DNA of 17,438 bases from Christensenella sp. UBA3700. Lineage in GTDB: Bacteria > Bacillota > Clostridia > Christensenellales > UBA3700. Location of the stretch: contig DFIJ01000134.1 of assembly GCA_002372775.1 (NCBI GenBank), positions 1 through 17,438 on the forward strand, given 5' to 3'. The notes below the pieces were generated by a model that searched no databases, was not told the DNA's origin, and was given only the letters and a program-made list of their open reading frames with translations. The stretch's first letter is position 1. Every line of letters starts with the position of its first letter. Below, piece by piece: positions 1 through 16,742 of this stretch. Position numbers and translations under genes: made by a program.

Positions 1-13
1 TCTTTTGAAATTA

Positions 14-849: not shown

Positions 850-1157
850 GTAATATAGTTTACCAAGTTCTTGCCGTTCTAGTTATGGGTCTTGTTACAT
901 ACCTTTGTCGTATGATTCCACTTGTGTTTATGAAAAAGCACATCGAGAATAAATATGTTAAATCTTTCTTATTCTATATTCCATATGCTGTAATTGCAGC
1001 ATTAACATTCCCTGCTATATTCTATTCAACAGGTTCAATTTGGACAGCTGTTATTGGAACAATAGTAGCACTAGTCATGGCATTCTTTAAGATTAACATG
1101 ACCATTGTTGCTATAGTATCCGTTGTTGTTGTTTTTGGTTTTGGATTTATTATTTAA
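846..1157 (+). CDS. azlD: AzlD family branched-chain amino acid transport small subunit
   Basis: This 103-residue protein consists almost entirely of hydrophobic helices (about three or four membrane segments), with one basic loop (FMKKHIENKYVKS, about residues 28-40). That size and the CRMIPLVF motif near residue 21 are typical of AzlD, the small partner of AzlC. The start overlaps the azlC stop (ATGA) and follows a near-perfect AAGGAGG at 832-838, so it is probably made in equal or higher amounts than AzlC. The stop codon lies inside the 3' end of the convergent aroE-aroK gene. No terminator hairpin is visible after it, so transcripts probably run antisense into aroE-aroK. Confidence 0.9.
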   Translation: MSNIVYQVLAVLVMGLVTYLCRMIPLVFMKKHIENKYVKSFLFYIPYAVIAALTFPAIFYSTGSIWTAVIGTIVALVMAFFKINMTIVAIVSVVVVFGFGFII

Positions 1158-2376: not shown

Positions 2377-2379
2377 ACT

Positions 2380-3516: not shown

Positions 3517-3529
3517 ATTTATACTCCTT

Positions 3530-4603
3530 TTATAGCAAACTATCTAATAATGCTATTTCGACAACTGATTCAACGCAAACTACAGCGCGAGGAACAATAC
3601 ATGCATCATGTCTTCCTTTTATCTCTAGTTCTACGTTTTCTTTTGTCTCCATATTAATTGTTTTTTGTTTTTGAGCAATTGATGGTGTTGGCTTAAATGC
3701 TACTCTTAATGTTATAGGCATACCATTTGTGATTCCACCATTAATACCACCATTGTGGTTTGTATATGTTTTTACGACTTTATTATCATCATAATAGAAA
3801 CTATCATTAGCTGTAGATCCTTTCATATTTGAGATATCAAAGCCTGCACCAAATTCAATACCTTTAACAGCAGGAATTGCAAACATTGCATAAGCAAGTT
3901 TGCCCTCAAAGCCTTCAAATAATGGACCACCTAACCCAACAGGAACGTTAAATGCCATACAATCAACTGTACCGCCAACAGAATCCATATTTGATTTCGC
4001 CTCTGAAATCTTCTCCATCATTTGAGCGCCTTTTTCTTCATCAAGCACTCTAAATAAAGGATTTGCTTTATTAATTTCTTCTATTGTTAAATCCTTATCC
4101 TTATATGATGTTGATTTAATTCCAGCAATTGAAGAGATATATGCTTCAACATCAATGCCATATTCTCGTAATAGTTGACGAGCAATTCCACCAAGAATAC
4201 AAATAGTTAATGTCATTCTTCCTGAGAAAATACCGCCACCTCTCATGTCCATTTCGCCTTTATATTTAACCTTAGCAACATAATCTGCATGACCAGGTCT
4301 TGGTGTATTTACAAGGTTGTTATAATCATTAGAATGTTGAGATGTATTCAAAACATAGGCCTCAAGCTTTTCTCCTGTAAGAGTGCCATCTTCGGTAATA
4401 CCTGAAGCAAAATGTATAACATCACCTTCAAGTCTTGCTGTTGAAAAGGCTGCCTTTTGAGCTTTTCTTCTATCCACGTACTCTTGTAATTCTTGAATAT
4501 TAATCTTCTTTCCTTTTGGAAGTCCTTCAACAAATAAAGATATCTTCTCCGCATGAGAAGCACCATATATTTCAATCTTAAGTTTGTCTAGTGCACTAAA
4601 CAT
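3530..4603 (-). CDS. aroC: chorismate synthase, divergent subfamily
   Basis: This FMN-dependent enzyme converts 5-enolpyruvylshikimate 3-phosphate to chorismate. Recognisable elements are RPGHADY (102-108), RGGGIFSGR (121-129), HNGGINGG in the last third, and GRHDACIVPRA (330-340). At 357 residues it is close to the short end of the family. Two signature positions differ from the usual consensus: the N-terminal motif reads GASHA (14-18) instead of GESHG, and the C-terminal motif reads RHDAC rather than RHDPC. The catalytic His17 is kept, so activity is expected. The gene starts inside the last codons of aroA (8-bp overlap); its GGAGGT ribosome binding site lies within aroA coding sequence, giving translational coupling. 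Confidence 0.94.
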   Translation of the reverse strand: MFSALDKLKIEIYGASHAEKISLFVEGLPKGKKINIQELQEYVDRRKAQKAAFSTARLEGDVIHFASGITEDGTLTGEKLEAYVLNTSQHSNDYNNLVNTPRPGHADYVAKVKYKGEMDMRGGGIFSGRMTLTICILGGIARQLLREYGIDVEAYISSIAGIKSTSYKDKDLTIEEINKANPLFRVLDEEKGAQMMEKISEAKSNMDSVGGTVDCMAFNVPVGLGGPLFEGFEGKLAYAMFAIPAVKGIEFGAGFDISNMKGSTANDSFYYDDNKVVKTYTNHNGGINGGITNGMPITLRVAFKPTPSIAQKQKTINMETKENVELEIKGRHDACIVPRAVVCVESVVEIALLDSLL

Positions 4604-5843
4604 TACATTTACCTCCTAAGGATTTATAATCTTCAAAGAATGTTGGATAAGACTTTTCTACGGCCTCTACTCCTTGAATTGTAGAATCACCACTTGCAAT
4701 TGATGCAGCTATTGCTTGCATCATTACCATTCTATGGTCATTATAAGATATACCACTAAATGGCTTTATAACGCCACCTTTTATATATAAAGTATTAGAT
4801 TCATATCTATTCTCTATACCCATTCTATCTAAGGTTTCTTGTACAGCTTTTAATCTATCTGTTTCTTTTATCTTTAGACGATCTACATTAGTGATTTTTG
4901 ATTCACCCTCTGCGCAAGCCATAAGGATAGATACTATTGGTACTAGATCAGGTATATTCTTTGCATCTAATTCTATGCTATGTAATGGTGCTTTTGTTAC
5001 ACTAACCGAATTATCAAATTTATTAACCTTAGCGCCCATTTTTTCAACTATATCAATAATCTCTCTATCCCCTTGATTTGAATCAAGAACCAAATTATTT
5101 ACTTTAATATCTTTATTTATTGCTCCTAGCACTATAAAGAAAGCCGCATTGGACCAATCGCCTTGAACTGCTAAATTATCCGGCATTATATACTTTTGAT
5201 TTCCTTTAATAGCATAACCCCAAGTTTCTTCTTTAATATATATTTTAAACAATCTTAACACTTCTAGTGTTATGTCTAAGTAACTCTTTGAAACTAAATT
5301 GCCTTCAATAACAATTTTACTATCTCCACTAAGGATAGGGAGTGCCATTAAAAGTCCTGTTATATATTGAGAAGATATTGAGCCATTAATTCTATATTCT
5401 CCACTCTTTATCTCTCCACTCATATTAAGAGGAAGTGTATCACTATCTACATATTCACCATTTTCTCTTAATACTTTTATAAGATCTATAAGAGGTCGTT
5501 TTTGAAGTCCTTCTTTGCCTGTTACAAATGCATTAACTTTTAGCGCTGCCAATATAGATAAAATAAATCTTACTGTTGAGCCAGATTCTATACAATCTAT
5601 ATTTGCTGTCTTTGGAATATCTCCAGAAGATAAATAGAATTTATTATCTTTAATATCTACTTTTGTATTAAGTGCATTTAAAAAATTAATTGTTGCCTTA
5701 ATATCTTTACTTTCAACTACGTTATTAATAACTCCATTATCTCGCGTAAGCATAGCACACATAAGCATTCTATGTGCATATGATTTACTTGCGATGGCAC
5801 TTACCTCGCCACCCATTATCGCTGGAGTTATTTTTATATCCAT
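4596..5843 (-). CDS. aroA: 3-phosphoshikimate 1-carboxyvinyltransferase (EPSP synthase)
   Basis: This 415-residue enzyme joins shikimate 3-phosphate and phosphoenolpyruvate. Visible motifs are SKSYAHR (19-25, substrate Lys20 and Arg25), ESGSTVR (86-92), the phosphoenolpyruvate site EGLQKRP (111-117), SSQYITGLL (157-165), catalytic Asp299 in NIPDLVP, KETDR (326-330) and NDHR (368-371). The 86-92 motif has ESGST where many class I enzymes have NAGTA, so it looks more like the forms of low-GC Gram-positive bacteria. No conclusion on inhibitor tolerance is drawn. It follows aroB by 2 nt, with AAAGGAT upstream of the ATG, and its 3' end contains the aroC ribosome binding site and start. Confidence 0.95.
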   Translation of the reverse strand: MDIKITPAIMGGEVSAIASKSYAHRMLMCAMLTRDNGVINNVVESKDIKATINFLNALNTKVDIKDNKFYLSSGDIPKTANIDCIESGSTVRFILSILAALKVNAFVTGKEGLQKRPLIDLIKVLRENGEYVDSDTLPLNMSGEIKSGEYRINGSISSQYITGLLMALPILSGDSKIVIEGNLVSKSYLDITLEVLRLFKIYIKEETWGYAIKGNQKYIMPDNLAVQGDWSNAAFFIVLGAINKDIKVNNLVLDSNQGDREIIDIVEKMGAKVNKFDNSVSVTKAPLHSIELDAKNIPDLVPIVSILMACAEGESKITNVDRLKIKETDRLKAVQETLDRMGIENRYESNTLYIKGGVIKPFSGISYNDHRMVMMQAIAASIASGDSTIQGVEAVEKSYPTFFEDYKSLGGKCNV

Positions 5844-5845
5844 TA

Positions 5846-6895
5846 TTATATTAAATCCTTTACCTTATCTAGTGGAATTGATTCAATTCTGCAATCGCCA
5901 ATAGCATATGGTATTACAAAATTAATATTTCCATTTTCTACTTTCTTATCTACATTCATAACGTTTATCATGTCTTGCATTGAATAATCCGTTATTCTTG
6001 GCATTTCATATTTCTCTAAAAGATTAATAATCTTATTATAATCTAAATCGTTTAGTTTTCCTTGTTTATGAGATATATCTGAAATTATTCTCAAACCTTC
6101 TGCTACACATACTCCATGAGGTATTGTGTAATTAGATAACTTTTCAATTGAATGAGCAAAAGTATGACCAAGATTTAAAAGTCTTCTTAGATTAGATTCT
6201 TTCTCGTCCTTTTCTACAATATTTGCTTTTGAGGTAACACAAAGTTTTATAAACTTTCCTATTTCGTTAGCACATGAACATCTAATACCTTTTTCAACGA
6301 TTGGTATTAGCTCTCCGCCATCCAAAACAACATACTTAATCCCTTCTCCCATGCCATTCTTGTATTCTGTACAAGGAAGGGTTGTCAAAGTTGCTGTATC
6401 TATTAAAACCATTATTGGTTGATAGAATGAACCTACTAAATTTTTGCCTGATGGTAAATCGACGGCAGTCTTTCCGCCGACTGATGAATCAATCATAGAA
6501 AGAAGAGTTGTTGGCACTTGAACATAATCAATTCCTCTCATATATGTTGATGCCGCAAAGCCCGCCATATCTCCAGTAACGCCACCGCCAAGAGCGACAA
6601 CAAGGTCAGATCTTGTAAATGCGCTTTCTGCTAAGAAATTTAAAATATTGCCATATGTTATTAGATTTTTACTCTTTTCTCCATGTGGGAATGTATATTC
6701 GAAAACATTGTAGCCACAAGTAATCAAACTGTCGGCTACAATCTTTCCATATAAATCGTGAACAATATCATCAGATACTACTAGCACCTTACATTTTGGC
6801 TTTATTGTTGAAATCTCTTCACCTACTGTATATAACAAATCCTTCTCGATTTTTATATCGTAAGTCTTTGATGCATGAACTTTAACAATCTCCAT
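5846..6895 (-). CDS. aroB: 3-dehydroquinate synthase
   Basis: This 349-residue, NAD- and metal-dependent enzyme closes the ring of DAHP to give 3-dehydroquinate. The NAD-binding GGGVTGD (103-109), PTTLLSMIDSSVGGKTAV (128-145) and the three expected metal ligands Glu184 (GMGEGIKY), His244 (NLGHT) and His260 (PHG) are all present. Length is normal for the family. It begins 1 nt after tyrA, with its AGGTGG ribosome binding site in the tyrA tail, and ends 2 nt before aroA. Its product needs 3-dehydroquinate dehydratase for the next step, and no such gene is in the window. Confidence 0.96.
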   Translation of the reverse strand: MEIVKVHASKTYDIKIEKDLLYTVGEEISTIKPKCKVLVVSDDIVHDLYGKIVADSLITCGYNVFEYTFPHGEKSKNLITYGNILNFLAESAFTRSDLVVALGGGVTGDMAGFAASTYMRGIDYVQVPTTLLSMIDSSVGGKTAVDLPSGKNLVGSFYQPIMVLIDTATLTTLPCTEYKNGMGEGIKYVVLDGGELIPIVEKGIRCSCANEIGKFIKLCVTSKANIVEKDEKESNLRRLLNLGHTFAHSIEKLSNYTIPHGVCVAEGLRIISDISHKQGKLNDLDYNKIINLLEKYEMPRITDYSMQDMINVMNVDKKVENGNINFVIPYAIGDCRIESIPLDKVKDLI

Positions 6896-6896
6896 A

Positions 6897-7769
6897 TTAT
6901 TTATCCACCTTCTTAGAAAGCATCTGAGCTCTCATCGCTTCAACTTTTTCTTTTATATCGCTACCTTCTTGTAATAATCTTGTTAGTTTCTCTTCATCTT
7001 TATTTGCTAACGCATCTTTATAGTCTTCAAGATTCTTTATTATTACGCTTATCTGTTCTACTAAATAATCACTGTTATTAAACATTAACTCTGTCCACAT
7101 TTGAGGATTCAATCTAGCAACTCTTGTCATATCCCTAAATGAGCCCGCAGAGAAACCATAGTGTTCTGTAGCAAGCTTATTCTTAACATATGCACTAGAT
7201 ACTATATGCGCAAGCTGAGATGTATAGGAAATCATCTCATCATGCTCAGCAGCATTAGTTATTACAACACCACTAAAGCCTAACTCTTGAACTAAATGTT
7301 TAATAGTAGCTCTAACTTCTATAGGTGTATTGTTTATTGGAACAAGTAAGAAAGTTGCGTTATCAAATACTGTTGTTGTTGAATGCGAGAATCCACTGAA
7401 CTCCCTTCCTGCCATAGGGTGGCCACCTACAAAATGCAAATCTGGATACTCTTGCTGTAACTTCTCCATTTCTGCACAAATACCTCTTTTATTACCACCA
7501 CAGTCTATTAATATTGCACCTTTTTTCATAAAAGGAGCATATTCTTTTAAGTAATCAATTATTGCTTGTGGATATAAAGCAATAAATAATATATCTAATT
7601 CCTTAGCGTTATCTTTTGAAAGGACTTTATCATAAGCTCCTGCTAAATAAGCATTCGCCATAGTCTTTTCAGAACGAGTATAAGCATAAACAGTATGCTC
7701 TGTTTTCTTTTTTAATGTTCTACAAATAGAACCTCCAATAAGACCAAGTCCAATAACGCCAATATTCAT
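6897..7769 (-). CDS. tyrA: prephenate dehydrogenase (TyrA)
   Basis: This 290-residue enzyme oxidatively decarboxylates prephenate to 4-hydroxyphenylpyruvate, the tyrosine branch point. The N-terminal Rossmann fold starts with GVIGLGLIGGS (4-14), and the catalytic histidine is His117 in GGHPMAG (115-121). There is neither a chorismate mutase domain nor a C-terminal ACT domain, so it lacks the usual tyrosine feedback module; control may rest on the operon leader and on AroF. After the second beta strand the sequence reads YTRSEK, with no acidic residue at the position that usually selects NAD, so use of NADP is possible (inference). A GGGAG site precedes the start, 1 nt after aroF. Confidence 0.93.
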   Translation of the reverse strand: MNIGVIGLGLIGGSICRTLKKKTEHTVYAYTRSEKTMANAYLAGAYDKVLSKDNAKELDILFIALYPQAIIDYLKEYAPFMKKGAILIDCGGNKRGICAEMEKLQQEYPDLHFVGGHPMAGREFSGFSHSTTTVFDNATFLLVPINNTPIEVRATIKHLVQELGFSGVVITNAAEHDEMISYTSQLAHIVSSAYVKNKLATEHYGFSAGSFRDMTRVARLNPQMWTELMFNNSDYLVEQISVIIKNLEDYKDALANKDEEKLTRLLQEGSDIKEKVEAMRAQMLSKKVDK

Positions 7770-7770
7770 A

Positions 7771-8784
7771 TTATTTACGCTCCCTATTTACAAGTGGTAA
7801 CATTACATCAATTTTCTTTACTAAATCTTCAAATTGTTCAGGACGAAGAGATTGTGCACCATCACATAATGCATGTGGTGGATCATTGTGTACTTCAATA
7901 ATTAAACCATCAGTGCCAGCACCTACTGCAGCAAGTGACATTGGAGCTACTAGTTTTGCAATGCCTGAAGCATGTGAAGGATCTACTATTACTGGTAAAT
8001 GTGTTAAATCTCTAAGAAGAGGAATGGCAGATAAGTCTAAAGTGTTTCTTGTATATGGTTCAAATGTTCTAATTCCTCTTTCACAAAGAATAACATTTGG
8101 ATTTCCTTCAGACATAATGTATTCAGCACTCATTAACCATTCTTGAATAGTATTAGCTAAACCTCTCTTTAATAAGATAGGCTTCTTTGTTTTACCAACT
8201 GTTTTTAATAAATCGAAATTTTGCATATTTCTAGCACCAATTTGAATGATATCTACATCTTCAAAAAGGTCTAAATACTTTTCAGCCATAAGTTCAGTAC
8301 AAATTGGCATACCTGTTTCTTCTTTAGCTTTAAGTAATAGCTTTAATCCATCTCCACCTAATCCTTGGAATGCATATGGAGAAGTTCTTGGCTTAAATGC
8401 GCCACCACGAAGGATGTTAGCACCTGCAGCTTTTACTGCATTGGCAATGCCAATAATTTGTTTTTCATTTTCAACAGAACACGGACCAGCTATAATTTGG
8501 AAGTTATTACCACCAAACTTATGTCCAGCAACATCAACAATAGTGTCTTCTGGGTGGAACTTTCTATTAGCTAGCTTATATGGCTCTTGAATTCTTTTAA
8601 CTGATTCAACAATATCTAAAGATTGAATTAAATCCACATCTACTTTAGATGTATCACCAACTAATCCTAAGATTTGTGTATTCTCACCATTAGATCTATC
8701 TATTCTAAGACCTTGTTTTTCAATCCAACTTGTTAGATTGTCTAATTGTTTTTTGTCACAACCATTTTTGATTACAATAATCAT
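7771..8784 (-). CDS. aroF: 3-deoxy-7-phosphoheptulonate (DAHP) synthase, type I-beta with N-terminal regulatory domain
   Basis: This is the first enzyme of the shikimate pathway, condensing phosphoenolpyruvate and erythrose 4-phosphate. The 337 residues split into an N-terminal ferredoxin-like domain (about 1-68, the type that binds Tyr or Phe for feedback in Thermotoga-like enzymes) and a TIM barrel. Barrel motifs include AGPCSVE with metal-ligand Cys102, RGGAFKPRTSPY (126-137), IGARNMQNF (182-190), KRG (206-208), a CERGIRTFEPY segment, VDPSHASG, and EVHNDP with a downstream ALCDGAQS. Its ATG follows TAGGAG by about 9 nt and lies 22 nt behind the attenuator terminator, so it is the first gene controlled by the leader. 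Feedback by tyrosine or phenylalanine is inferred from domain architecture. Confidence 0.95.
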   Translation of the reverse strand: MIIVIKNGCDKKQLDNLTSWIEKQGLRIDRSNGENTQILGLVGDTSKVDVDLIQSLDIVESVKRIQEPYKLANRKFHPEDTIVDVAGHKFGGNNFQIIAGPCSVENEKQIIGIANAVKAAGANILRGGAFKPRTSPYAFQGLGGDGLKLLLKAKEETGMPICTELMAEKYLDLFEDVDIIQIGARNMQNFDLLKTVGKTKKPILLKRGLANTIQEWLMSAEYIMSEGNPNVILCERGIRTFEPYTRNTLDLSAIPLLRDLTHLPVIVDPSHASGIAKLVAPMSLAAVGAGTDGLIIEVHNDPPHALCDGAQSLRPEQFEDLVKKIDVMLPLVNRERK

Positions 8785-8805
8785 ATTTCACATCTCCTAT
8801 ATAAC

Positions 8806-8835
8806 AAAAAAACCACCATTTTGTTGGCGGTTCTT
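8806..8835 (-). terminator. attenuator terminator in front of aroF
   Basis: On the minus strand AACCGCCA (8832-8825), a 6-nt loop and TGGTGGTT (8818-8811) form an 8-bp stem with one G-U pair, running straight into seven T residues (8812-8806). It lies between the promoter and the first gene, 22 nt before the aroF ATG, so it cannot be an end-of-operon terminator and acts as an attenuator. Its 5' arm is shared with the antiterminator. Confidence 0.92.
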
Positions 8836-8943
8836 AAATTTCATTTTATTTACTCATTTTCTTCAAGTTTGTTTATTCTAAAAACCGCATTAAACATCTA
8901 GGCTATAATAGTAGCCGTAAAAGTAATATGCGCTAAAATAAAC
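8827..8943 (-). promoter_or_regulatory. Tyr/Phe attenuation leader RNA: competing antiterminator and protector hairpins
   Basis: Two exclusive folds can be drawn. Antiterminator: GCGGTTTTTAGA (8888-8877), right after the leader stop codon, pairs with TTTAAGAACCGC (8838-8827) over 12 bp (two G-U), capturing the 5' arm of the terminator. Protector (1:2) structure: GTTTATTTT (8943-8935, leader codons 5-7) pairs with AGAATAAAC (8879-8871), CGCAT (8932-8928) with ATGCG (8890-8886), and GGCTA (8916-8912) with TAGCC (8905-8901). The protector arms overlap the antiterminator arm and their left halves lie in the Tyr codons. Expected logic: a ribosome stalled at Tyr or Phe codons opens the protector, the antiterminator forms and aroF is read; with charged tRNA the ribosome reaches the stop, covers 8888-8878 and the terminator forms. 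Pairings are seen by eye; energies were not calculated. Confidence 0.88.
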
Positions 8944-8955
8944 TTGCTTTCTCAT
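8890..8955 (-). CDS. aromatic operon leader peptide, Tyr/Phe-rich
   Basis: A 21-codon frame, ATG to TAA, with Tyr at 6, 10, 11, 13, 15, 16 and 17 and Phe at 7 and 12; its core reads YYFYGYYY (10-17). Nine of 21 residues are the end products of the operon that follows, and there is no Trp, in keeping with the absence of trp genes. It starts 11 nt downstream of a perfect -10 box and ends immediately before the antiterminator arm. This is the layout of regulatory leader peptides such as PheL of Escherichia coli, whose function is to sense aminoacyl-tRNA through ribosome stalling. The sequence AAGGCG precedes the ATG, but the predicted transcript start is only about 2-6 nt upstream, so translation may be leaderless. 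The frame is far too short for ordinary gene callers. Confidence 0.9.
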   Translation of the reverse strand: MRKQVYFSAYYFYGYYYSLDV

Positions 8956-8965
8956 ATCGCCTTTT

Positions 8966-8994
8966 ATTATATAGGTGCAAATATATGATGTCAA
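8966..8994 (-). promoter_or_regulatory. consensus sigma-A promoter of the aromatic amino acid operon
   Basis: TTGACA (8994-8989), a 17-nt spacer and TATAAT (8971-8966) match the consensus at all 12 positions with ideal spacing. Upstream is an A/T-rich tract (about 8995-9025) that could act as an UP element. The predicted start is around 8957-8960. A maximal promoter fits an operon whose output is set downstream by attenuation rather than by promoter strength. Confidence 0.93.
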
Positions 8995-9025
8995 GGTGTG
9001 TAATTAAAAATTCAAATATATGAAT

Positions 9026-9060
9026 AAAAACGAGAGGATTATGAATATATTAGCCTCTCG
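9026..9060 (-). terminator. terminator after the SGNH esterase gene
   Basis: On the minus strand CGAGAGG (9060-9054) and CCTCTCG (9037-9031) form a perfect 7-bp stem with a 16-nt A/T-rich loop, followed by TTTTT (9030-9026). It lies 31 nt after the esterase stop and separates the glycan unit from the aromatic operon promoter. The 307 bases between the two genes therefore hold this terminator, the promoter, the leader peptide and the attenuator. Confidence 0.85.
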
Positions 9061-9091
9061 AATATATAATTTATTAGCATATAACACCATT

Positions 9092-9820
9092 CTATCTAAA
9101 AGATTCTATATATTCATATATTCCAGCAGCTATCCTCTTTGCTCCTTTTGCATTTGGATGAACCCCATCATCACTATAATAATCATTTGACGACAACATG
9201 CTTCTAACATCAATTGTAGATATTTTCAACTCTTCTGCCACTTCGCAAATTGCATCTCTAATCTCACTTTGAATTCGATTATTATCTATATCAAAAACAT
9301 TATCATAGGCATTTATTGGCAATAACAAATAAACTCTATTCACAGAAGATAATGATTTATAATCTTCAACTATACACTTATAATCTTCTTTAAAAACCTT
9401 CTTTGAAGAATAGTTATAAGATTTAGAATCATTTGTGCCAAGCATAATAAGCACAATCGTTGGATTGCAGTTTATACTATCCTTATACTCGCTCGTTTTT
9501 GCATAGGGATTGTTTGTATTAATACTTGCAGTCGCACCATTTACCCCAAAATTTTTTACGGAATACTCGGTTTTCAATTTATATTGTAATTGCCCAGGAT
9601 AACTATAATACTTTTGCATATTTATTCCATAACCATACGTTATACTATCCCCTACGCACGCAACTATTCTTTCAGCCTTAATATATACTGAATACTTTAC
9701 AAATGGAATCATAAATATCAAAACCAGCATCAAGACGAATATCAAAGCTAGCGCGATAATAATACGATATTTATTTCTTATTTTAGAGTTCCCTAATTCT
9801 TTTTGCTGGACATCCAACAT
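9092..9820 (-). CDS. membrane-anchored SGNH/GDSL-family esterase
   Basis: A short basic N-terminus and one membrane segment (about residues 21-41 of this start) precede an extracytoplasmic SGNH hydrolase domain. All four blocks are visible: GDSITYG with the nucleophile Ser, GVNGAT with the block II Gly, GTND with the block III Asn, and DDGVHPN with the catalytic Asp-x-x-His pair. The family removes acyl groups, often O-acetyl, from lipids, peptidoglycan or glycans. The gene overlaps the 3' end of the acetyltransferase by 38 bp, so the two are coupled; one may add and the other remove or transfer an acyl group (inference). The ATG at 9820 is preferred because AAAGAGA sits about 9 nt upstream; an ATG at 9829 is possible but too close to that site. 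It is the last gene before a terminator. Confidence 0.85.
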   Translation of the reverse strand: MLDVQQKELGNSKIRNKYRIIIALALIFVLMLVLIFMIPFVKYSVYIKAERIVACVGDSITYGYGINMQKYYSYPGQLQYKLKTEYSVKNFGVNGATASINTNNPYAKTSEYKDSINCNPTIVLIMLGTNDSKSYNYSSKKVFKEDYKCIVEDYKSLSSVNRVYLLLPINAYDNVFDIDNNRIQSEIRDAICEVAEELKISTIDVRSMLSSNDYYSDDGVHPNAKGAKRIAAGIYEYIESFR

Positions 9821-10277
9821 AAACACCATTCTCTTTTGTATCTTTAACTACGGTACTATTAGCTCCAATAATACACCCTTTCGCAATATTTACTCCTGGC
9901 AATATAGTCACCCCTGCACCAATCCAACAATTATCTCCAACGACAATGCCTTTATAAATATTCTCCCCTGCACGTCTTATGTCACTACCTTTATTGATTT
10001 CATGCGTAACACATATAAAACGACAATCACAACCTATATCAACATTGTCCCCTATTCTTATCATAACGTTTGAATAGCCTGTATAGAACTTAGTATGTTT
10101 TTGCACACTGGAGCCTTCACCTATAACTATATTTTTCCCATTGTCCATGAACACGCCCGGATATAATTGCGCGTTTTTGCCTATAGTGCATCCCCCCAGT
10201 TTCAATAAAACTATTCTCATTTTTGATGGGAATAAACCAATAATATTGTTGTACGCTTGAAAAAAACGATTATTCAT
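9783..10277 (-). CDS. left-handed beta-helix (hexapeptide repeat) O-acetyltransferase
   Basis: About 164 residues. From about residue 30 the sequence runs in hexapeptide turns (for example IGKNAQ, IGEGSS, IGDNVD, VGDNCW, IGAGVT, IGANST), the coil pattern of LbH acyltransferases of the maltose acetyltransferase/CapG type. VTHEI carries the likely catalytic His. It is expected to be a cytoplasmic trimer that transfers acetyl from acetyl-CoA to a sugar hydroxyl; the acceptor is unknown. The ATG at 10277 is chosen because AAAAGGG lies about 10 nt upstream; the frame is open to a TTG at 10286 that is too close to that site. It sits about 37 nt after the cytidylyltransferase and overlaps the esterase, so it belongs to the same glycan unit. 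Confidence 0.85.
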   Translation of the reverse strand: MNNRFFQAYNNIIGLFPSKMRIVLLKLGGCTIGKNAQLYPGVFMDNGKNIVIGEGSSVQKHTKFYTGYSNVMIRIGDNVDIGCDCRFICVTHEINKGSDIRRAGENIYKGIVVGDNCWIGAGVTILPGVNIAKGCIIGANSTVVKDTKENGVYVGCPAKRIREL

Positions 10278-10314
10278 GACTACCAAACCCTTTTAAATAT
10301 TATATAAATTATCA

Positions 10315-10977
10315 TTAGTGCTTTCTGCCATTCTTCAATTTTAATTCCATCATACACTCTAAAAAATCTAAATCTTCTAAATATGTTAATTTATAATTTT
10401 CTTTAAAATCGTAATAATAATACACTTTTGTATTTGAAGGATACATCTGCAACACCTCTACTATTTTTGAATCACGATCAAGATTCTTTTCAAGCTTTGA
10501 AAACTCAAAAGACATCGGAGAAGCTGTCAAAAAATATCTATCTCTATCGCATGTCTTCATGTCTAAACAATTTAGACTATCCGTTATCTTAGAAGTTGTA
10601 ACACAGATATCATATCCACTCTTTATAATATCTAAATATTTATCTATTAGTTCTCCCGTTACAAAAGGCCTAACTGCATCTAGCACAATCACGCTCTCGC
10701 ATTGATAATTCTCTTTTATAAAATCGACCCCGTTTCTTAATGATTTATTTCGAGTATCTCCACCTTCCACATAGATTAGATTTGGGTACTCTTGCTGTAA
10801 ATCCTCGATAAATGGATGATGGGCGACAACTATAATCTTATCCAATTTTTGTGCTTTTAAAGCAGCTTCTATAACATAAGAGACAACCATTTTGCCACAA
10901 ATCTTTAAATATTGTTTTGGAATAGTGCTACCCAATCTTTGTCCAATCCCACTAGATAGTATCAATGCAACATTCAT
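10315..10977 (-). CDS. IspD/TarI-family cytidylyltransferase, probably making a CDP-activated polyol or alcohol
   Basis: The 220 residues match the IspD fold. The nucleotide loop is SSGIGQRLGSTIPKQYL (8-24) with Arg14 and Lys21 in the places of the CTP-binding Arg and Lys. GGDTRNKSLRNGV (72-84), LDAVRPFV (99-106) and the C-terminal KLTYLEDLDFLE follow the IspD pattern. The usual AAG start of the loop is SSG. The family joins CTP to methylerythritol phosphate (IspD) or ribitol phosphate (TarI, human ISPD). The position 6 nt after a licD gene makes a role in supplying the LicD donor much more likely than isoprenoid synthesis. No TarJ-like reductase is next to it, so ribitol phosphate as substrate is not proven. 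LicC-like choline phosphate use is also possible, although LicC has a different loop pattern. Confidence 0.85.
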   Translation of the reverse strand: MNVALILSSGIGQRLGSTIPKQYLKICGKMVVSYVIEAALKAQKLDKIIVVAHHPFIEDLQQEYPNLIYVEGGDTRNKSLRNGVDFIKENYQCESVIVLDAVRPFVTGELIDKYLDIIKSGYDICVTTSKITDSLNCLDMKTCDRDRYFLTASPMSFEFSKLEKNLDRDSKIVEVLQMYPSNTKVYYYYDFKENYKLTYLEDLDFLECMMELKLKNGRKH

Positions 10978-10983
10978 CTTTTC

Positions 10984-11802
10984 CTATTTCTCCTCGATAA
11001 TAAAAGCTTCATAATTATGTGTTAGTACTTGTTTTTCTTTTGGCGGAAGTTTCATATAATCCCCATAAAACATCTTTAAAATCGTTTTGTACTCTTTAGG
11101 AACAGAAAATGTTATCCCTTCAAATTCTAATTCACATTTTCCATCATAGAATTCCTTTTTATGAATTCTCCTATCTCCAACCTCATCTACGAACGACCCT
11201 ACATAACTACTTTCATCAAATTTATATGTCAATGCTAGATCTTTAATTTTTTTCGATAGATATTTATGGCCAAACAACTTAGCTACTAAATAGGCCCCGC
11301 AAACCAAACAATTCTTATAAAATGGAACATTCTTTCTCCATTTATCCACCCTATAGCTCATTAATAAATCAATTGGCATTTTTATTTTTTTAAAAACTTT
11401 ATGAGCATCTTCCATAGATTCACCAAGGCCATCAATTGGGAAAATATCAAGATATACCCCCATATCGACGCCATTTTTCGCACCTTTTTCATATAACAAA
11501 GTGTTTTTCGCCGCAATTTTTATAAAAGAATATAGATATTTATCATTAGTTTCTTGTGCGTAAAGAATATTATTTCCGCCTGATTTTGAGTAGATTTCAA
11601 TAAATCTCTCGTAATCTGGACGAGGCATATGCATATCAATATCATCGTCCCATGGTATAAAGCCTTTATGTCTTACTGCTCCTAGGAGAGTACCGCCCGA
11701 TAGGTAGTATCTCAAGTTGTTCTCTTCGCAAATCCTTTTTACTTCGCAAGCAAGATTCAATAATATCTCTCTAATTTCTTTAATGTCTTCTATTTTTCTC
11801 AT
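10984..11802 (-). CDS. LicD-family phosphotransferase (second copy)
   Basis: This 272-residue protein has the LicD signature: SGGTLLGAVRHKG (35-47) followed by PWDDDID (50-56), the metal- and phosphate-binding acidic cluster of this nucleotidyltransferase-like fold. LicD proteins move phosphocholine, and the related fukutin and FKRP move ribitol phosphate, from CDP-linked donors to glycans. No signal peptide or clear membrane segment is seen, so it should act on the cytoplasmic face. It resembles the LicD at 12852-13679 along its whole length, with identical register of the core motif, which indicates an old duplication. GAGGAA precedes the ATG by 5 nt. It heads the licD-cytidylyltransferase-acetyltransferase-esterase unit. 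Confidence 0.9.
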   Translation of the reverse strand: MRKIEDIKEIREILLNLACEVKRICEENNLRYYLSGGTLLGAVRHKGFIPWDDDIDMHMPRPDYERFIEIYSKSGGNNILYAQETNDKYLYSFIKIAAKNTLLYEKGAKNGVDMGVYLDIFPIDGLGESMEDAHKVFKKIKMPIDLLMSYRVDKWRKNVPFYKNCLVCGAYLVAKLFGHKYLSKKIKDLALTYKFDESSYVGSFVDEVGDRRIHKKEFYDGKCELEFEGITFSVPKEYKTILKMFYGDYMKLPPKEKQVLTHNYEAFIIEEK

Positions 11803-11823
11803 ATAGTTCCTCTTTATTATTTT

Positions 11824-11829
11824 ATTATA
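11824..11829 (-). promoter_or_regulatory. possible -10 box for the second licD unit
   Basis: TATAAT lies 21 nt before the licD ATG and downstream of the terminator at 11876-11906, so a promoter is expected here. No good -35 hexamer is found at 15-18 nt spacing, so it would be weak or activator-dependent, or read-through from upstream may matter. Confidence 0.35.
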
Positions 11830-11875
11830 TTACTTAAGGTAAAACAATGACTGAAATTACTTCCTACTCTTTATA

Positions 11876-11906
11876 TAAAAATCGGCGTTAAACCAGCCGA
11901 TTTATT
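11876..11906 (-). terminator. terminator after the cyclodeaminase-like gene
   Basis: On the minus strand AAATCGGC (11903-11896), a 9-nt loop and GCCGATTT (11886-11879) form an 8-bp stem that runs into a short T stretch (11881-11877). It lies 44 nt after the stop codon. The T stretch is short, so termination may be partial. Confidence 0.7.
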
Positions 11907-11949
11907 GTTTTAAAGTCTTTTTTTTAACTTTCTTATCAAGTTACAATCT

Positions 11950-12846
11950 TTAACGCTGATTTGTTAATTTATTGAATATATGATTTGCTAATGCTATATC
12001 ATGAATCGCGATACCAATGTTGTAGCAAATAATCCTTTCTGTATCGCTAGTTCTTCCCTTATTTTCCCCATTCAACACACTTGAGACTTCTGCAAATCTG
12101 GAAAGAAATTGATTATAATATTTAAAACCACGTAAATGTCCTTCATCATCTCCAAACACCTTATCAAAAGCTAAATCACATTCCATAAAGCCTCTTGTAT
12201 GAATGGGAACAACTAAACAGCCAGGTTTAAAACATTCTACTGAAACAAAATCATCTTGCATATATGTTACTGCCGAAATAACTACGTCAGTATTTTTTAT
12301 GCAATCTTCATAACTCTCATAAACTTCCCATCTAGGAGAATAGTTTTTGAACTCTTGTATTATTCTTTCCGCACAATTCTTGTGATTGTATATCTTTAGT
12401 ACATAATCATCCCCGAAATAATCTAAGAAAAATTTAAGCGTAGTGCGACCTATTTCTCCCATTCCTATAAAAGCCACTGACTTAAAGCCATCTTTTGCAA
12501 ATAAATTTATCGAATGAATTGCGACTGCAGAAGTTCTTAGGGTTGTTATCAAGTCTGCATCAAAAAAAGCTTTTAAGTCTCCATTTCTGTAATCATACAA
12601 AAGCAAATTGCTCTTAAGGCATGGTTTATTGTTTGGATATCTATTTACAACTTTCACCCCAGCAATGTCAAACTTTGGCATAATGCATGGCATAACATTA
12701 TAAAAATTATCCGGGTTAATCTTCATGCTAATTTTTGGAGGCAACACATCATCTTTCTTGTTTTTCAATGTATCATCAACTAGATTGACAAGTTCTTTAG
12801 CAGATAGGCCTAAGCTATCTATGTCTTTATTTGTAATATATTTCAT
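11950..12846 (-). CDS. ornithine cyclodeaminase / mu-crystallin family NAD(P)-dependent protein
   Basis: This 298-residue protein matches the OCD/mu-crystallin family. GVKVVNRYP carries the likely catalytic Lys65; DADLITTLRTSA (96-107) includes the conserved Arg104. The Rossmann motif is GMGEIGR (128-134), and the C-terminal GIAIHDIALA (278-287) contains the conserved Asp283. Members convert ornithine to proline, reduce cyclic imines, or act as alanine or N-carboxyethyl amino acid dehydrogenases, so the exact reaction cannot be assigned. Its place between two licD genes is unusual; it may make a small molecule that ends up on the glycan, or it may be a passenger (inference). The ATG at 12846 is preferred because AGGAG lies 8 nt upstream; a GTG at 12855 overlaps the preceding TGA and leaves the Shine-Dalgarno too close. 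Confidence 0.85.
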   Translation of the reverse strand: MKYITNKDIDSLGLSAKELVNLVDDTLKNKKDDVLPPKISMKINPDNFYNVMPCIMPKFDIAGVKVVNRYPNNKPCLKSNLLLYDYRNGDLKAFFDADLITTLRTSAVAIHSINLFAKDGFKSVAFIGMGEIGRTTLKFFLDYFGDDYVLKIYNHKNCAERIIQEFKNYSPRWEVYESYEDCIKNTDVVISAVTYMQDDFVSVECFKPGCLVVPIHTRGFMECDLAFDKVFGDDEGHLRGFKYYNQFLSRFAEVSSVLNGENKGRTSDTERIICYNIGIAIHDIALANHIFNKLTNQR

Positions 12847-12851
12847 ATAAC

Positions 12852-13679
12852 TCACTCCTGTTCTTTTATTAATAATCTATACCCATGTGTATTAATTTGT
12901 TTTTCAGGCGGAGGCAACGTCATATAATCACCATACGTCTGCTTTAAATATAAGTCAAAATTCTCCATTCCTAAGAATTTTTCGCCTTCGAACTGCATTG
13001 GGATAAGCCTTGAATAAACACTTTCCTTATTAAAAATTCTCTTATCTCCAGTTGCCTCCATATATTGTCCGACATATGCACTATTTCTATATGGACAGTC
13101 GTGTGCAATTTTACTAATCTTGCGATACAATCTATCTTTTCCATAACATAAAGCCACTATTTTTAACATAAAAACTGCTAAATTTTTAGCAAGAGAGGCT
13201 TCCTTTCTCCATAAATCTATAGACAATGAAACAATCAACGAATTGTAAAGAAACATTTTCCTCATTTGCTTTTTTGCTTCACTGTACGTATTGCCTAAGC
13301 CATCAATTGGGAAAATGTCTACATACAACCCTAATTCAACACCACAATTACATCCTTTTTCATATAGTATAGAACTTGTATCAACATATTTAGCATATGG
13401 ATAATTGTAATCTTTATTTAATTCATGACAATATAATTTATATCTAGAGGTTGAATTAGACAACTGCATTATCCGAATCAACTTATCATAATCATCTCTT
13501 CTCATATAAAAGTCAATATCATCATCCCATGGAATAAAGCCTTTATGTCGCACGGCGCCAAGCAAAGTGCCTCCGCCCATAAATAATTGTAGACTATTCT
13601 CTTCACATATATTTCTTAGTTCTATAGCGGCGGCCAATAATCTTTGTTTTATCTCTTTTATGTCGCGAACTTCCCTCAT
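12852..13679 (-). CDS. LicD-family phosphotransferase (first copy)
   Basis: This 275-residue protein has the LicD core GGGTLLGAVRHKGFIPWDDDID (35-56) and is similar throughout to the copy at 10984-11802, including the start (REVRDIKEIKQ against RKIEDIKEIRE) and the end (PPPEKQINTHGY against PPKEKQVLTHNY). The acidic cluster DDDID is intact, so activity is expected. The two copies may transfer the same group to two positions, as LicD1 and LicD2 do in pneumococcal teichoic acid (inference). The ATG at 13679 is chosen because AGGGAG lies 6 nt upstream and because it aligns with the paralogue; the frame stays open to a TTG at 13697 that precedes the binding site. It is followed within a few nucleotides by the cyclodeaminase-like gene. 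Confidence 0.9.
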   Translation of the reverse strand: MREVRDIKEIKQRLLAAAIELRNICEENSLQLFMGGGTLLGAVRHKGFIPWDDDIDFYMRRDDYDKLIRIMQLSNSTSRYKLYCHELNKDYNYPYAKYVDTSSILYEKGCNCGVELGLYVDIFPIDGLGNTYSEAKKQMRKMFLYNSLIVSLSIDLWRKEASLAKNLAVFMLKIVALCYGKDRLYRKISKIAHDCPYRNSAYVGQYMEATGDKRIFNKESVYSRLIPMQFEGEKFLGMENFDLYLKQTYGDYMTLPPPEKQINTHGYRLLIKEQE

Positions 13680-13716
13680 AAACATCTCCCTAAACAATTC
13701 TTATTAATACTACTCT

Positions 13717-13744
13717 ATTATAATAATTTTGTAAATAATAACAA
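13717..13744 (-). promoter_or_regulatory. candidate sigma-A promoter of the first licD unit
   Basis: TTGTTA (13744-13739), a 16-nt spacer and a perfect TATAAT (13722-13717) lie 38 nt before the licD ATG, downstream of the lipoprotein terminator. The -35 box matches 4 of 6 positions. Confidence 0.55.
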
Positions 13745-13764
13745 AACCCGTAGCGAATCCTTTT

Positions 13765-13799
13765 ATAGGAGATTTGATAAGACTAACCTAATCACCTAT
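13765..13799. repeat. imperfect inverted repeat between lipoprotein gene and licD
   Basis: ATAGGAGATT (13765-13774) and AATCACCTAT (13790-13799) are inverted copies with one mismatch, separated by 15 nt. No T-run follows on the minus strand. It lies just upstream of the licD promoter, so it could be an operator or a leader hairpin; no function is established. Confidence 0.35.
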
Positions 13800-13821
13800 G
13801 GCTTTTATGTGTCTGATAATT

Positions 13822-13874
13822 AATAAAATACGCATCAACACATATTTTTACATTGTTCTATAGTTGATGCATAT
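13822..13874 (-). terminator. probable terminator after the lipoprotein gene
   Basis: On the minus strand a 12-bp stem with one G-U pair forms between ATATGCATCAAC (13874-13863) and GTTGATGCGTAT (13839-13828), with a 23-nt loop, followed by TTTTATTA. It begins 31 nt after the stop codon. The long loop and interrupted T-run lower confidence. Confidence 0.6.
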
Positions 13875-13904
13875 TCTATATAAAATCGTTTATACTATAA
13901 AAAC

Positions 13905-15878
13905 TTACGTTACTTCTACATAACCAGTGCCACTGTCCTTATAATATGTTATAGCATCTGTCTCTAAACAATATAACGCAATATCAGCTGATGAATTCTC
14001 TTTTATTTCAACAAGACAATATGTATTATCAACTTCAAGTGTTATTCCATAAGCAGCACCTATGTCACTCTTTAGTTGAGTGTTGTCACTTGCAACATAT
14101 GTAAAGTAAGTCTCTAGCAAATCAGCGTAATAATTAGAAGACTCACGCACGCCATACACGCCATTTGCATTTTCATCGGTTCCGCTTTCGAAAGTTGTTG
14201 ATTGATATCCAACCATTTCAATATCTTCAAAGAAGAACAAGAAAAACTCTGCGGCAACCGCTGCCTCCAACTCATTTACAACAAGCCCATCATTTGCAAG
14301 ATTATCTATCATTGCTGCTCTTTGAGAATTATTAGCCCATCCTGGATGTGGTTTATAATAGTAAGCATAATCATCTCCATAAATCTTAGCCGTTGCTCTA
14401 ATATAAGTCTCTAGATTACCACTCTCTCCTCCTGCTGAAGTTCCCAATATCATCATAATCTTTTTATCTCCAGCTGCGGCAAAAGTATTCTCGTCAATAT
14501 GATATGTAGTTTTAAATGCTGACTTCTCATCTGTGCTCAAAGCATTTAGTAAACTATTTAAATAAAATTCTTCTCTTCCATGATTCTTTGAGCCATTGAC
14601 TGCAAAATCTGCAAATTCAGAATCAGATAGGATTACATTTTCTGTTGTTCTCAATCTTCCTGTATACCATTTTACATTCTCCATTTCATTACAAACAACT
14701 AGCGAATAATTCGGAATAGCATATGATGTATAAGGCAAATTACGCACCCCGGTTTCAACATAAGAATTCCAGGCAGTTGCCATTTCATCATACTTTGTTT
14801 GTGGATCTTCGACATTAAATGTATCAACGAGATACCCTGCCGTACCTGAACCATCCGAATACATAATAGCAGAATAATTTTCTACAGGAATTCTATTTCC
14901 TAAAAACATCATTCCTAATAAATAAATACTATTATCCGTAAAATGGAACGTAAATCGGATATTATTATTCATACTATATAATTCCTTAATCCATCTTGCC
15001 GTATTACTAGCTGCAGTATCCCAATCCTTTCCAAAGGCTACTGGATTTTTAGTGATATTACTAGGCAAGTTGTTCCAGTCATATGCTTTAGGCCTTGATA
15101 AATAAACATAAGACTTAGCACCTGAATCCAATTTCGTGCTGTCTGCATCTGCTTTCATTAATGTATATATAGAAACTGGAAACGTTCCATTAAAGAATGC
15201 AATGTCTATTACCGAAGTGCTAACCTCCACGTTTTCGGCATATTCTATAATCTCTAAACCAGATTGAGACCTAGCTTTTATCTCAATATTATAACAGCCA
15301 TAAAAGATATCATCAAAAACATAATTCCCGCTAGAGATGTTATCTACACTATCAATTGTATGAGTAGCCACGACATCCTCTCCGTGTTTAGCTGAAATAA
15401 CCAAGGATTCTATTTCTTCTGGAACTCCTTCCCAATCAACTTGAATTTCTTCGTTATTATTGCCTAATTGTGCGGCGGTAACCGTAAAACTTTTATCTAC
15501 CCAAATTGCATATAGCGTAGTAGATTCAACGAATCTATATTCTGCCTCGTCTGTATATAGAACTTCACCATCTATAGCAGTTGCCCAGCCTGCAAAATCC
15601 TTTAATTCCTTGGAAAATAAATTCTTGCTTAACCTTTTAGTTTCTCCCATTTTAGAGGTTTGACTACCCATTGTTCCAACCCCACCATTTGCATTAAACA
15701 CTACAGTAACGGTAGCTATATTTGCATTTGGGTCTATAGTTCCAGAATCTACTCCTGAATTCTCTAATCCAGAAGTTACACCAGATTCTCCACTGTTATC
15801 TTCTACTATATTAGAACAGGCAGAAAGCATCAGTATACATAAAACTACGACTATTATAATTCCTATACTCTTTTTCAT
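13905..15878 (-). CDS. surface lipoprotein with InlB-type repeat and GT80 sialyltransferase-like domain
   Basis: This 657-residue protein begins with a lipoprotein signal (KK, hydrophobic stretch, lipobox LSAC with Cys21), then a Ser/Gly/Asp/Asn-rich linker. Residues about 55-130 match one InlB B-repeat (Listeria-Bacteroides type: VTVVFNANGG, FAGWAT, TLYAIW). A beta-rich, Ig- or FN3-like segment spans about 131-230. The rest (about 233-595) looks like a GT-B glycosyltransferase with the GT80 pattern: YSDGS (340-344, D342 as the base), YYYKPHP (506-512, His511), and GYQSTTF (557-563) where the phosphate-binding Ser pair of GT80 lies. In the reference enzymes the first motif reads YDDGS, so the first Asp is Ser here. 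Marine vibrio GT80 enzymes are also lipoproteins with an Ig-like domain (recalled knowledge). GAGGG precedes the ATG. It follows the phosphotransferase by 26 nt. The GT80 assignment is motif-based and needs a profile search. Confidence 0.75.
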   Translation of the reverse strand: MKKSIGIIIVVVLCILMLSACSNIVEDNSGESGVTSGLENSGVDSGTIDPNANIATVTVVFNANGGVGTMGSQTSKMGETKRLSKNLFSKELKDFAGWATAIDGEVLYTDEAEYRFVESTTLYAIWVDKSFTVTAAQLGNNNEEIQVDWEGVPEEIESLVISAKHGEDVVATHTIDSVDNISSGNYVFDDIFYGCYNIEIKARSQSGLEIIEYAENVEVSTSVIDIAFFNGTFPVSIYTLMKADADSTKLDSGAKSYVYLSRPKAYDWNNLPSNITKNPVAFGKDWDTAASNTARWIKELYSMNNNIRFTFHFTDNSIYLLGMMFLGNRIPVENYSAIMYSDGSGTAGYLVDTFNVEDPQTKYDEMATAWNSYVETGVRNLPYTSYAIPNYSLVVCNEMENVKWYTGRLRTTENVILSDSEFADFAVNGSKNHGREEFYLNSLLNALSTDEKSAFKTTYHIDENTFAAAGDKKIMMILGTSAGGESGNLETYIRATAKIYGDDYAYYYKPHPGWANNSQRAAMIDNLANDGLVVNELEAAVAAEFFLFFFEDIEMVGYQSTTFESGTDENANGVYGVRESSNYYADLLETYFTYVASDNTQLKSDIGAAYGITLEVDNTYCLVEIKENSSADIALYCLETDAITYYKDSGTGYVEVT

Positions 15879-15904
15879 TAAACCCTCAGATTCTCCTTGT
15901 TATT

Positions 15905-16657: not shown

Positions 16658-16690
16658 AAGAATCCCCCCTTTTCTGTTCTTATTAAATAT

Positions 16691-16719
16691 ATTATACAAT
16701 TTCTAATTACACTTTTCCA
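16691..16719 (-). promoter_or_regulatory. candidate sigma-A promoter for the phosphotransferase-lipoprotein unit
   Basis: TGGAAA (16719-16714), a 17-nt spacer and a perfect TATAAT (16696-16691) lie 34 nt before the ATG at 16657. The -35 matches 4 of 6 positions. The preceding terminator makes an own promoter necessary. Confidence 0.6.
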
Positions 16720-16732
16720 TAACGATAATTAG
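16703..16732. repeat. 7-bp inverted repeat flanking the -35 box, possible operator
   Basis: CTAATTA (16703-16709) and TAATTAG (16726-16732) form a perfect inverted repeat with 16 nt between them, bracketing the -35 hexamer at 16714-16719. The placement suits a repressor site, but the repeat is AT-only apart from its end bases, so chance is a real alternative. Confidence 0.3.
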
Positions 16733-16742
16733 CTCATTGTGC

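Follow-up and report, generated by a model that had tools for sequence, protein, structure and literature searches.

The aromatic amino acid operon aroF-tyrA-aroB-aroA-aroC-pheA-aroEK of Christensenella sp. UBA3700, a Firmicute of the class Clostridia, is very probably controlled by a ribosome-mediated transcription attenuator that would sense charged tRNA-Tyr, together with charged tRNA-Phe, through the translation of a short leader peptide. The operon lies on the minus strand of contig DFIJ01000134.1 (assembly GCA_002372775.1), positions 1 to 17,438 of which were analyzed and are referred to here as the window; the promoter and the leader sit on the same strand between the end of the upstream gene (9092) and the start of aroF (8784). 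An earlier note on this DNA, made from the sequence alone, had proposed attenuation of this kind for the whole operon, and comparison with relatives and a folding model now lend the proposal strong support. A wider proposal is that a large group of Clostridia runs the aromatic pathway by means of near-leaderless attenuators, in which transcription would start at or next to the AUG codon, 70S ribosomes would load at once on the RNA as its 5' end appears, and the Tyr and Phe codons would record which branch enzymes are encoded downstream; this proposal is tentative, and its chance of being right is put slightly below even.

Leader peptide and competing RNA structures in the window

The leader open reading frame (ORF), at 8890 to 8955, encodes the peptide MRKQVYFSAYYFYGYYYSLDV in 21 codons followed by a stop codon, and 7 of these codons are for Tyr and 2 for Phe. 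All nine fall within 12 codons, a density that was equaled in none of 5,000 dinucleotide shuffles of the 300-nucleotide (nt) upstream region. The frame is preceded by a sigma-70-type promoter (8994-8966) made up of the -35 hexamer TTGACA (8989 to 8994) and the -10 hexamer TATAAT (8966 to 8971) with a spacer of 17 nt, which was the sole 12/12 match among 81 promoter-like sites. The last base of the -10 hexamer is located 10 nt before the leader AUG, and promoter spacing places the expected transcription start zone on the purines 5 to 9 nt past the hexamer (8957 to 8961). The 5' untranslated region would thus be only about 2 to 6 nt long, making the leader near-leaderless, a feature on which the earlier note had not remarked, and leaving no room for a Shine-Dalgarno site.

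An intrinsic terminator (8804 to 8835), consisting of an 11-bp stem (8835-8808) and a U tract, precedes aroF. Its 11 pairs are the most among nine terminator-like sites, and its fold is more stable than expected by chance (z = -5.2; 0/200 shuffles as good). The antiterminator is formed by a 5' arm, GCGGTTTTTAGA (8877 to 8888), and a 3' arm, TTTAAGAACCGC (8827 to 8838), with 12 of 12 pairs standard, including two G-U pairs; this complementarity was reached by 0 of 2,000 shuffles, and the isolated antiterminator has a z score of -3.9 (0/200 shuffles as good). The 3' arm overlaps the 5' arm of the terminator, and the two structures are mutually exclusive because they share 8835-8827. A third structure, the protector, has a left arm (8928 to 8943) within leader codons 5 to 10, of which 8943-8935 and 8932-8928 pair with 8879-8871 and 8890-8886, respectively, in a right arm (8871 to 8890) that overlaps the 5' arm of the antiterminator. 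Together with the inner hairpin GGCTA/TAGCC (8901 to 8916, pairing 8916-8912 with 8905-8901), it comprises 9, 5, and 5 pairs, all standard and one of them G-U, with probabilities in free RNA of 0.92 and 0.91 for the two stretches of the left arm and 0.97 for the hairpin. The protector half has a z score of -3.3 (1/200 shuffles as good), and the fold of the leader region as a whole has a z score of -3.7 (0/200). The 21-codon frame, the perfect promoter, the terminator before the first gene, and the 12-bp antiterminator that would exclude it had all been described in the earlier note, and each was recovered at the positions given there.

In the folding model, the transcript begins at 8960 and is cut off just past the terminator loop, before the 3' arm of the terminator emerges, and a 30-nt ribosome footprint is placed at each codon. 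Under these settings the element behaves as a classical attenuator with three states: in free RNA the protector has a probability of 0.92 and the antiterminator 0.06; when any of the Tyr or Phe codons between 6 and 17 occupies the A site, the antiterminator rises to 0.95 to 0.97; and when the stop codon does so, it falls to 0.00. Downstream footprints of 9 or 15 nt left the antiterminator at 0.91 or more at Tyr/Phe codons and at 0 at the stop codon. A check of the fold with an RNA energy model had been suggested in the earlier note.

The mechanism proposed from these elements would begin with transcription starting 2 to 6 nt before the leader AUG and a ribosome loading on the emerging, near-leaderless 5' end. 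Under a shortage of Tyr or Phe, this ribosome would stall within codons 6 to 17 and cover the left arms of the protector; 8888-8877 would then pair with 8838-8827, the terminator would be blocked, and the operon would be transcribed. When both amino acids are plentiful, a ribosome at the stop codon would cover the 5' arm of the antiterminator, and the terminator (8835-8808) would form. Without translation, the protector would hold the antiterminator arm, and termination would be the predicted outcome.

Leaders, structures, and promoter spacing in relatives

Regions upstream of aroF were drawn from at least 80 loci on named contigs and from searched genomes, of which 4 of 5 matched in the genus, 26 of 46 in the family, and 159 of 297 in the order; 100 stretches were taken from among the order matches. 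Among these, 244 aroF matches had at least 150 nt upstream, shorter ones being excluded, and removal of 40 duplicates by the last 150 nt gave 204 distinct regions; this and the following comparison counts include the window. A leader was scored where an ORF of 8 to 45 codons starting with ATG, within 300 nt upstream, held at least 6 Tyr/Phe codons in 12. This rule picks the shortest ATG ORF of the top Tyr/Phe density and so sometimes selects an inner ATG, which lengthens the apparent distance to the -10 hexamer, or a different ORF, as at L091, where its choice differs from the likely leader as read by eye.

Tyr/Phe-dense leaders were found in 111 of the 204 regions; the reverse complements gave 2 of 204, and shuffled sequences averaged 1.55. 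They were present at 38 of 80 named-contig loci and in 73 of 124 regions from the searched genomes, and their frequency varied with the gene that follows aroF: tyrA, 87/116; pheA, 8/13; aroB, 6/35; aroA, 0/6; aroC, 0/1; and none seen, 10/33. Within the family of the window, leaders are present at all four aroF loci of genus g1 and at five loci of genus g4 (L143 there scores 5). The family includes "Candidatus Alloclostridium intestinigallinarum" (L092 and L044, identical over the 150 nt before aroF) and the order includes "Candidatus Parachristensenella avicola" (L234 and L060, likewise identical), both placed in the class Clostridia by NCBI. The RNA sequence diverges widely among relatives, yet the Tyr/Phe density of the peptide persists. 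A codon-position test over 847 aligned codons in 42 pairs gave 179, 204, and 277 differences at positions 1, 2, and 3, respectively, which points to coding; this test is not relied on because the pairs were aligned as peptides, which biases it.

Some observations on individual groups were made alongside the counts. In genus g36 (L228 to L232), two adjacent, divergent copies of aroF have no Tyr/Phe leader that is clear by eye, and the ORF through which L232 passes the leader rule is doubtful in its position. Tyr/Phe-rich ORFs also occur before aroF on contigs labeled outside the Clostridia (L010, L024, L026, L028, L058, L066, and L068; labels Kiritimatiellae, Lentisphaerae, Verrucomicrobia, Synergistaceae, and Fusobacteriaceae), which, if the labels hold, would point to wide spread or transfer of such leaders.

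Structures were compared for 107 of the 111 leaders or for 59 cluster representatives. Past the leader start, 105 of the 111 have a terminator at least as stable as -10 kcal/mol, although a terminator-like hairpin alone is unspecific, since one at least as stable as -8 kcal/mol is present in 185 of the 204 aroF upstream regions. Pooled over the 107 loci, sequestration of the 5' arm of the terminator was 0.73 with the ribosome stalled, 0.58 in free RNA, and 0.45 with the ribosome at the stop codon; the corresponding values with the spacer shuffled were 0.58, 0.54, and 0.47. Real and shuffled spacers differed in the stalled-minus-free contrast (Wilcoxon, 7e-6) and in the stalled-minus-stop contrast (1.4e-10), and the differences held among the 59 representatives (p = 0.002 and 0.0002), of which 37 and 41, respectively, exceeded their own null. 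Complementarity between the segment after the leader and the terminator arm was likewise significant when pooled (Fisher, 4e-7 against shuffles and 4e-6 against swaps with other species, the swap ranks being mutually dependent). Mean duplex energy was -13.5 for an arm with its own partner, -10.5 for swapped arms, and -11.3 for shuffled arms, and the own pairing was better than the swap mean in 45 and than the shuffle mean in 41 of the 59. Both arms differ between species yet pair, as in GCGGTTTTTAGA/TTTAAGAACCGC in the window, TCGGTTATTTTT/AGAAGTAGCCGA at L185, AGGTCGCT/AGCGACCT at L091, and CAGGCCTTGTCT/AGAAGAGGCCTG at L076. The leaders are too divergent for a broad covariation alignment; in the four genus sequences that were aligned, the core GCGGTTTT of the antiterminator 5' arm is invariant. 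In the model, the feature that recurs across relatives is sequestration that is high when the ribosome is stalled and low when it is at the stop codon.

Promoter spacing was surveyed for the 110 of 111 leaders with enough upstream sequence. A promoter scoring at least 9/12 was found within 45 nt of 82 of the 110, compared with a mean of 11.6 and a maximum of 16 in 20 rounds of mononucleotide shuffling. The gap between the -10 hexamer and the AUG was exactly 6 nt in 18 of these 82, so that the usual start would fall on the AUG itself, and was 12 nt or less in 26; it is 10 nt in the window and 9 nt in three relatives of the genus. None of the 26 leaders with gaps of 12 nt or less has a Shine-Dalgarno motif, versus 33 of the 56 with longer gaps. 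Genome-wide counts of a promoter followed by ATG in eight genomes of the order gave 106 cases at 5 to 7 nt, 44 at 11 to 13 nt, and 9 for the reversed pattern; the same counts in four genomes of the genus were 34, 25, and 18, a weak genome-wide sign. ORFs of at least 200 codons begin at such an ATG in 10 of 23 cases in the order and 1 of 8 in the genus (31 matches at 30 loci). Judging from this genome-wide spacing, leaderless starts may be general in some families of the order and not specific to attenuators.

Codon content and alternative explanations

The codons of the leaders match the genes that they precede. The Tyr share of Tyr plus Phe codons averages 0.52 in the 43 clusters with tyrA next after aroF and 0.24 in the 6 clusters with pheA in that place, a difference reached in 1 of 100,000 permutations. 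In the order, pheA had matches in 108 of 294 genomes, and 60 pheA loci were examined. Of these, 49 (one a duplicate) have an aro gene upstream, and none of them scores above 3. The other 11 have no aro gene upstream within the stretch examined; five of these have a clear Phe leader by rule (L291, L297, L338, L339, and L356; scores of 5 to 8), and two more were recognized by eye, L337 with a GTG start and L342 with 4 Phe codons, where the rule picked another ORF. L344 (score of 6) was excluded because its ORF crosses the promoter, and no Phe leader was seen before the separate pheA of L306, L340, or L351. In genomes G187 and G198, separate pheA genes stand behind leaders made almost purely of Phe codons. 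The separate-pheA leaders of genus g49 (L291, L297, L337, L338, L339, and L356) were also seen to have their start codon a few nucleotides past a -10-like box.

Nine genomes allow a paired comparison: seven carry a separate pheA, and in the other two (G013 and G014) aroF is duplicated, with pheA after one copy and tyrA after the other. In 9 of 9 the lower Tyr share belongs to the leader of pheA or aroF-pheA, and in 6 of 9 that share is zero; a sign test on these pairs would overstate their independence because they come from only three genera (six from g49, two from g4, and one from g1). In G001, a genome of the window's own genus, a Tyr-rich leader precedes aroF-tyrA, and a full, separate pheA (L342) lies behind MTKLLVFTFGGFFTNCSK, a leader with Phe as its only aromatic residue of the two. 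The aro operon of G001 retains just residues 1 to 81 of pheA, the mutase part (L147, 4044-3802, minus strand). Separated pheA genes thus serve as natural experiments, with near-pure Phe codons in their own leader and Tyr codons kept in the leader of aroF-tyrA.

This match bears on the most serious alternative, in which the terminator-antiterminator switch is real and is worked by a riboswitch, a TRAP- or TyrR-like protein, or a T-box, the leader ORF being incidental. A tRNA-sensing RNA would be available, as the genome of the window has four T-box matches, two of them above the cut-off. A ligand-binding RNA would not, however, need Tyr and Phe codon shares that shift with the gene controlled, nor would it account for a peptide composition that persists while the RNA sequence differs widely among relatives. 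No Rfam family reached its gathering score in the window; of five weak matches (E values up to 10), only Phe_leader spans the leader, at 21.4 bits against a cut-off of 55, and no T-box covariance-model match was found at the aro leader either at gathering cut-offs or at E values up to 10. This alternative is considered improbable.

Marginally less probable again is that the leader senses a general slowing of ribosomes, caused by antibiotics or low translation, as do upstream ORFs (uORFs) of resistance genes, and not a specific amino acid. The geometry alone requires neither Tyr nor Phe, since nearly every stall modeled between codons 2 and 20 gives the antiterminator, with probabilities of 0.77 to 0.97. 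Because these stalls act much alike, amino acid specificity would reside in the codons and not in the geometry, and the codons are enriched for Tyr and Phe far above chance ahead of an aromatic operon, with Tyr versus Phe content that matches tyrA versus pheA. Chance encoding of Tyr and Phe beside an ordinary promoter and terminator, which A+T-rich intergenic DNA (where TAT, TAC, and TTT codons arise easily) and the commonness of terminator-like hairpins before aroF might suggest, is scarcely credible in view of the shuffled-sequence expectations exceeded in the window and across the 204 regions and of the weaker three-state behavior with the spacer shuffled.

Several results weigh against attenuation by Tyr/Phe leader peptides, or against its generality. 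At the threshold used, 29 of the 116 aroF-tyrA operons have no leader, and none was seen within the family at the 5 loci of genus g2 or the 13 of genus g5, in which aroB follows aroF. The null for the individual locus was exceeded in only 69 of 107 loci for stalled-minus-free and 82 of 107 for stalled-minus-stop sequestration, and antiterminator complementarity, judged for each representative by itself, reached significance against shuffles in only 15 of 59 and against swaps in 11 of 59, in a per-sequence test that is weak for distant groups. In all three genus relatives compared (L146, L084, and L147), the terminator arm is sequestered in free RNA as much as in the stalled state (0.81 to 0.98). 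The protector is therefore not a conserved part of the element, even within the genus: it is present in the window, with the pairs that the earlier note had drawn, and ineffective in these relatives. The mechanism also assumes that a Firmicute can initiate translation here with no Shine-Dalgarno site. Finally, the single Tyr codon of AroR, a leader peptide of Corynebacterium glutamicum, is reported to be unresponsive to Tyr. Dominance of Tyr, also claimed for the window, agrees with its 7 Tyr versus 2 Phe codons and sits less well with this report and with the model, in which a stall at either Phe codon gives full antitermination. Beside the genera without leaders, it was observed that L095 to L107 (g5, and also g2) share a conserved promoter-like block in the last 110 nt before aroF; this block perhaps reflects a different regulator.

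Known attenuators, the operon, and its genome

The kind of attenuator proposed here is known; what is new is the predominance of Tyr codons, the breadth among Clostridia, and the starts that look near-leaderless. The Proteobacterial leaders of pheA, pheST (Phe_leader, RF01859), trp, and his likewise consist of a short ORF rich in codons for the end product, a terminator, and an antiterminator, and they resemble the window in having a protector and a stop codon at which a ribosome that completes the leader would block the antiterminator. In the window, by contrast, Tyr codons predominate, the common pathway and both branches would be controlled, and the start would be near-leaderless. Membership of Phe_leader was rejected at the score given above, obtained over the full model length. 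T-boxes (RF00230), one of which precedes pheS in the genome of the window, also sense tRNA charging and switch a terminator; they differ in needing no translation. Escherichia coli employs TyrR in place of a Tyr leader. Leader-peptide attenuators for branched-chain amino acids reportedly occur in Staphylococcus aureus (PMC5794164) and in Listeria (PMC5864092).

The closest precedent, and the nearest analogue that has been tested, is AroR, a Phe-Tyr-Phe leader peptide before aroF in C. glutamicum, for which Phe limitation is reported to raise transcription and Tyr to have no effect (PMC4046766, PMC11802643, PMC11525245); leaderless short ORFs are known in the same species (PMC4046766). As these sources describe it, AroR resembles the window in having Phe and Tyr codons in a leader upstream of a DAHP synthase operon, with ribosome stalling raising transcription, and differs in being Actinobacterial, limited to Phe-Tyr-Phe, and responsive to Phe. 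The leader of the window, with its 7 Tyr codons and 2 Phe codons, stands before a whole operon with tyrA and pheA, and it belongs to a broad Clostridial set with gene-matched codons. In Acholeplasma, the uORFC-13-1 motif has a uORF immediately followed by a terminator ahead of aroF, with control by translation speed proposed (PMC8632094), much as in the window; its 24 examples, from Acholeplasma or the environment, are described as having one or more Phe codons and a ribosome-binding site, and the available part of the description mentions neither Tyr codons nor a match of codons to genes.

His leader peptides have been described in bacilli, where their authors believed them to be the first outside the Proteobacteria and Actinobacteria (PMC2965389), and His attenuators are known from the Bacillus cereus group, from Eubacteriales including Clostridioides difficile (Peptostreptococcaceae), and from Erysipelotrichales (PMC9413887). 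As far as these accounts extend, the Firmicute His and branched-chain leaders share the leader peptide, terminator, and antiterminator with the window and serve other amino acids and other operons; for the His leaders, leaderless starts go unmentioned in the descriptions available. Mycobacteria have leaderless polycysteine attenuators (Canestrari 2020, cited in PMC9031893), which resemble the arrangement proposed for the window in combining a leaderless short ORF, codons for the sensed amino acid, and downstream control; they are Actinobacterial and sense Cys, and the description, as cited, gives no intrinsic terminator-antiterminator pair. The view in the earlier note that leader-peptide attenuation is best known from Proteobacteria has to be qualified by these Gram-positive cases, namely AroR, the His and branched-chain leaders, and the Acholeplasma aroF uORF. 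A 2005 survey of Actinobacteria, in the portion available, reported no conserved Phe or Tyr RNA elements (PMC1262725). No paper on leader-peptide attenuation by tyrosine codons was found in the open-access literature, and no Clostridial aro leader was met in open-access literature listings on leader peptides and attenuation.

The seven genes of the operon are tightly packed on the minus strand (1150 to 8784). In order of transcription they are aroF, a DAHP synthase of the PRK08673 subfamily (7771 to 8784); tyrA, prephenate dehydrogenase (6897 to 7769); aroB, 3-dehydroquinate synthase (5846 to 6895); aroA, EPSP synthase (4596 to 5843); aroC, chorismate synthase (3530 to 4603); pheA, chorismate mutase/prephenate dehydratase (2380 to 3516); and an aroE-aroK fusion, shikimate dehydrogenase/shikimate kinase (1150 to 2376). 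NCBIfam matches were above the cut-off for aroF, aroB, aroA, and aroC, and the best matches for tyrA, pheA, and aroE-aroK were below their cut-offs. No trpE was found in genome G000 (82% complete) or G003 (98% complete), which suggests that Tyr and Phe are the only products the pathway serves; a Tyr/Phe sensor over the whole operon is in keeping with this. Tryptophan auxotrophy is likely in both genomes, judging from this gene content, and would fit the presence of a Trp T-box on a transporter gene. Among 29 trpE loci of the order, no consistent Trp-rich leaders were found, and leader-peptide control of trp is therefore not claimed.

The four T-box matches in the genome of the window (L110, 1727-1501, minus strand; L111, 1501-1715, plus strand; L112; and L113) have, as read by eye, the specifiers UGG (Trp; before a TrpX-like ABC substrate-binding protein), UUC (Phe; pheS), UGC (Cys; cysE), and perhaps ACC (Thr; before an unnamed gene). 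With these matches beside the aro leader, T-box and leader-peptide control seem to coexist in one genome.

Elsewhere in the window, the plus-strand region at 76 to 1157 presumably encodes an AzlC/AzlD-like amino acid exporter pair, and the minus-strand region at 9092 to 13697 is taken to be a surface-polysaccharide cluster encoding a cytidylyltransferase and two LicD-like proteins, both assignments having been made by eye. After the upstream gene, the minus strand at 9060-9025 was read by eye as CGAGAGG...CCTCTCG followed by TTTTT, with a loop longer than the limit of the hairpin scan; it is likely the 3' terminator of that gene and would insulate the aro promoter.

By these results, ribosome-mediated attenuation of the aromatic pathway, known in Proteobacteria (pheA) and Corynebacterium (aroF), would extend to many mostly uncultured Clostridia that also have T-boxes, and tyrosine would become a main sensed amino acid. 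If the wider proposal is true, tyrosine is added to the amino acids sensed by leader peptides. Promoter spacing suggests that leaderless translation occurs in Firmicutes, and leaderless initiation would then, on the same proposal, be part of the coupling of polymerase and ribosome from the first nucleotides of the transcript.

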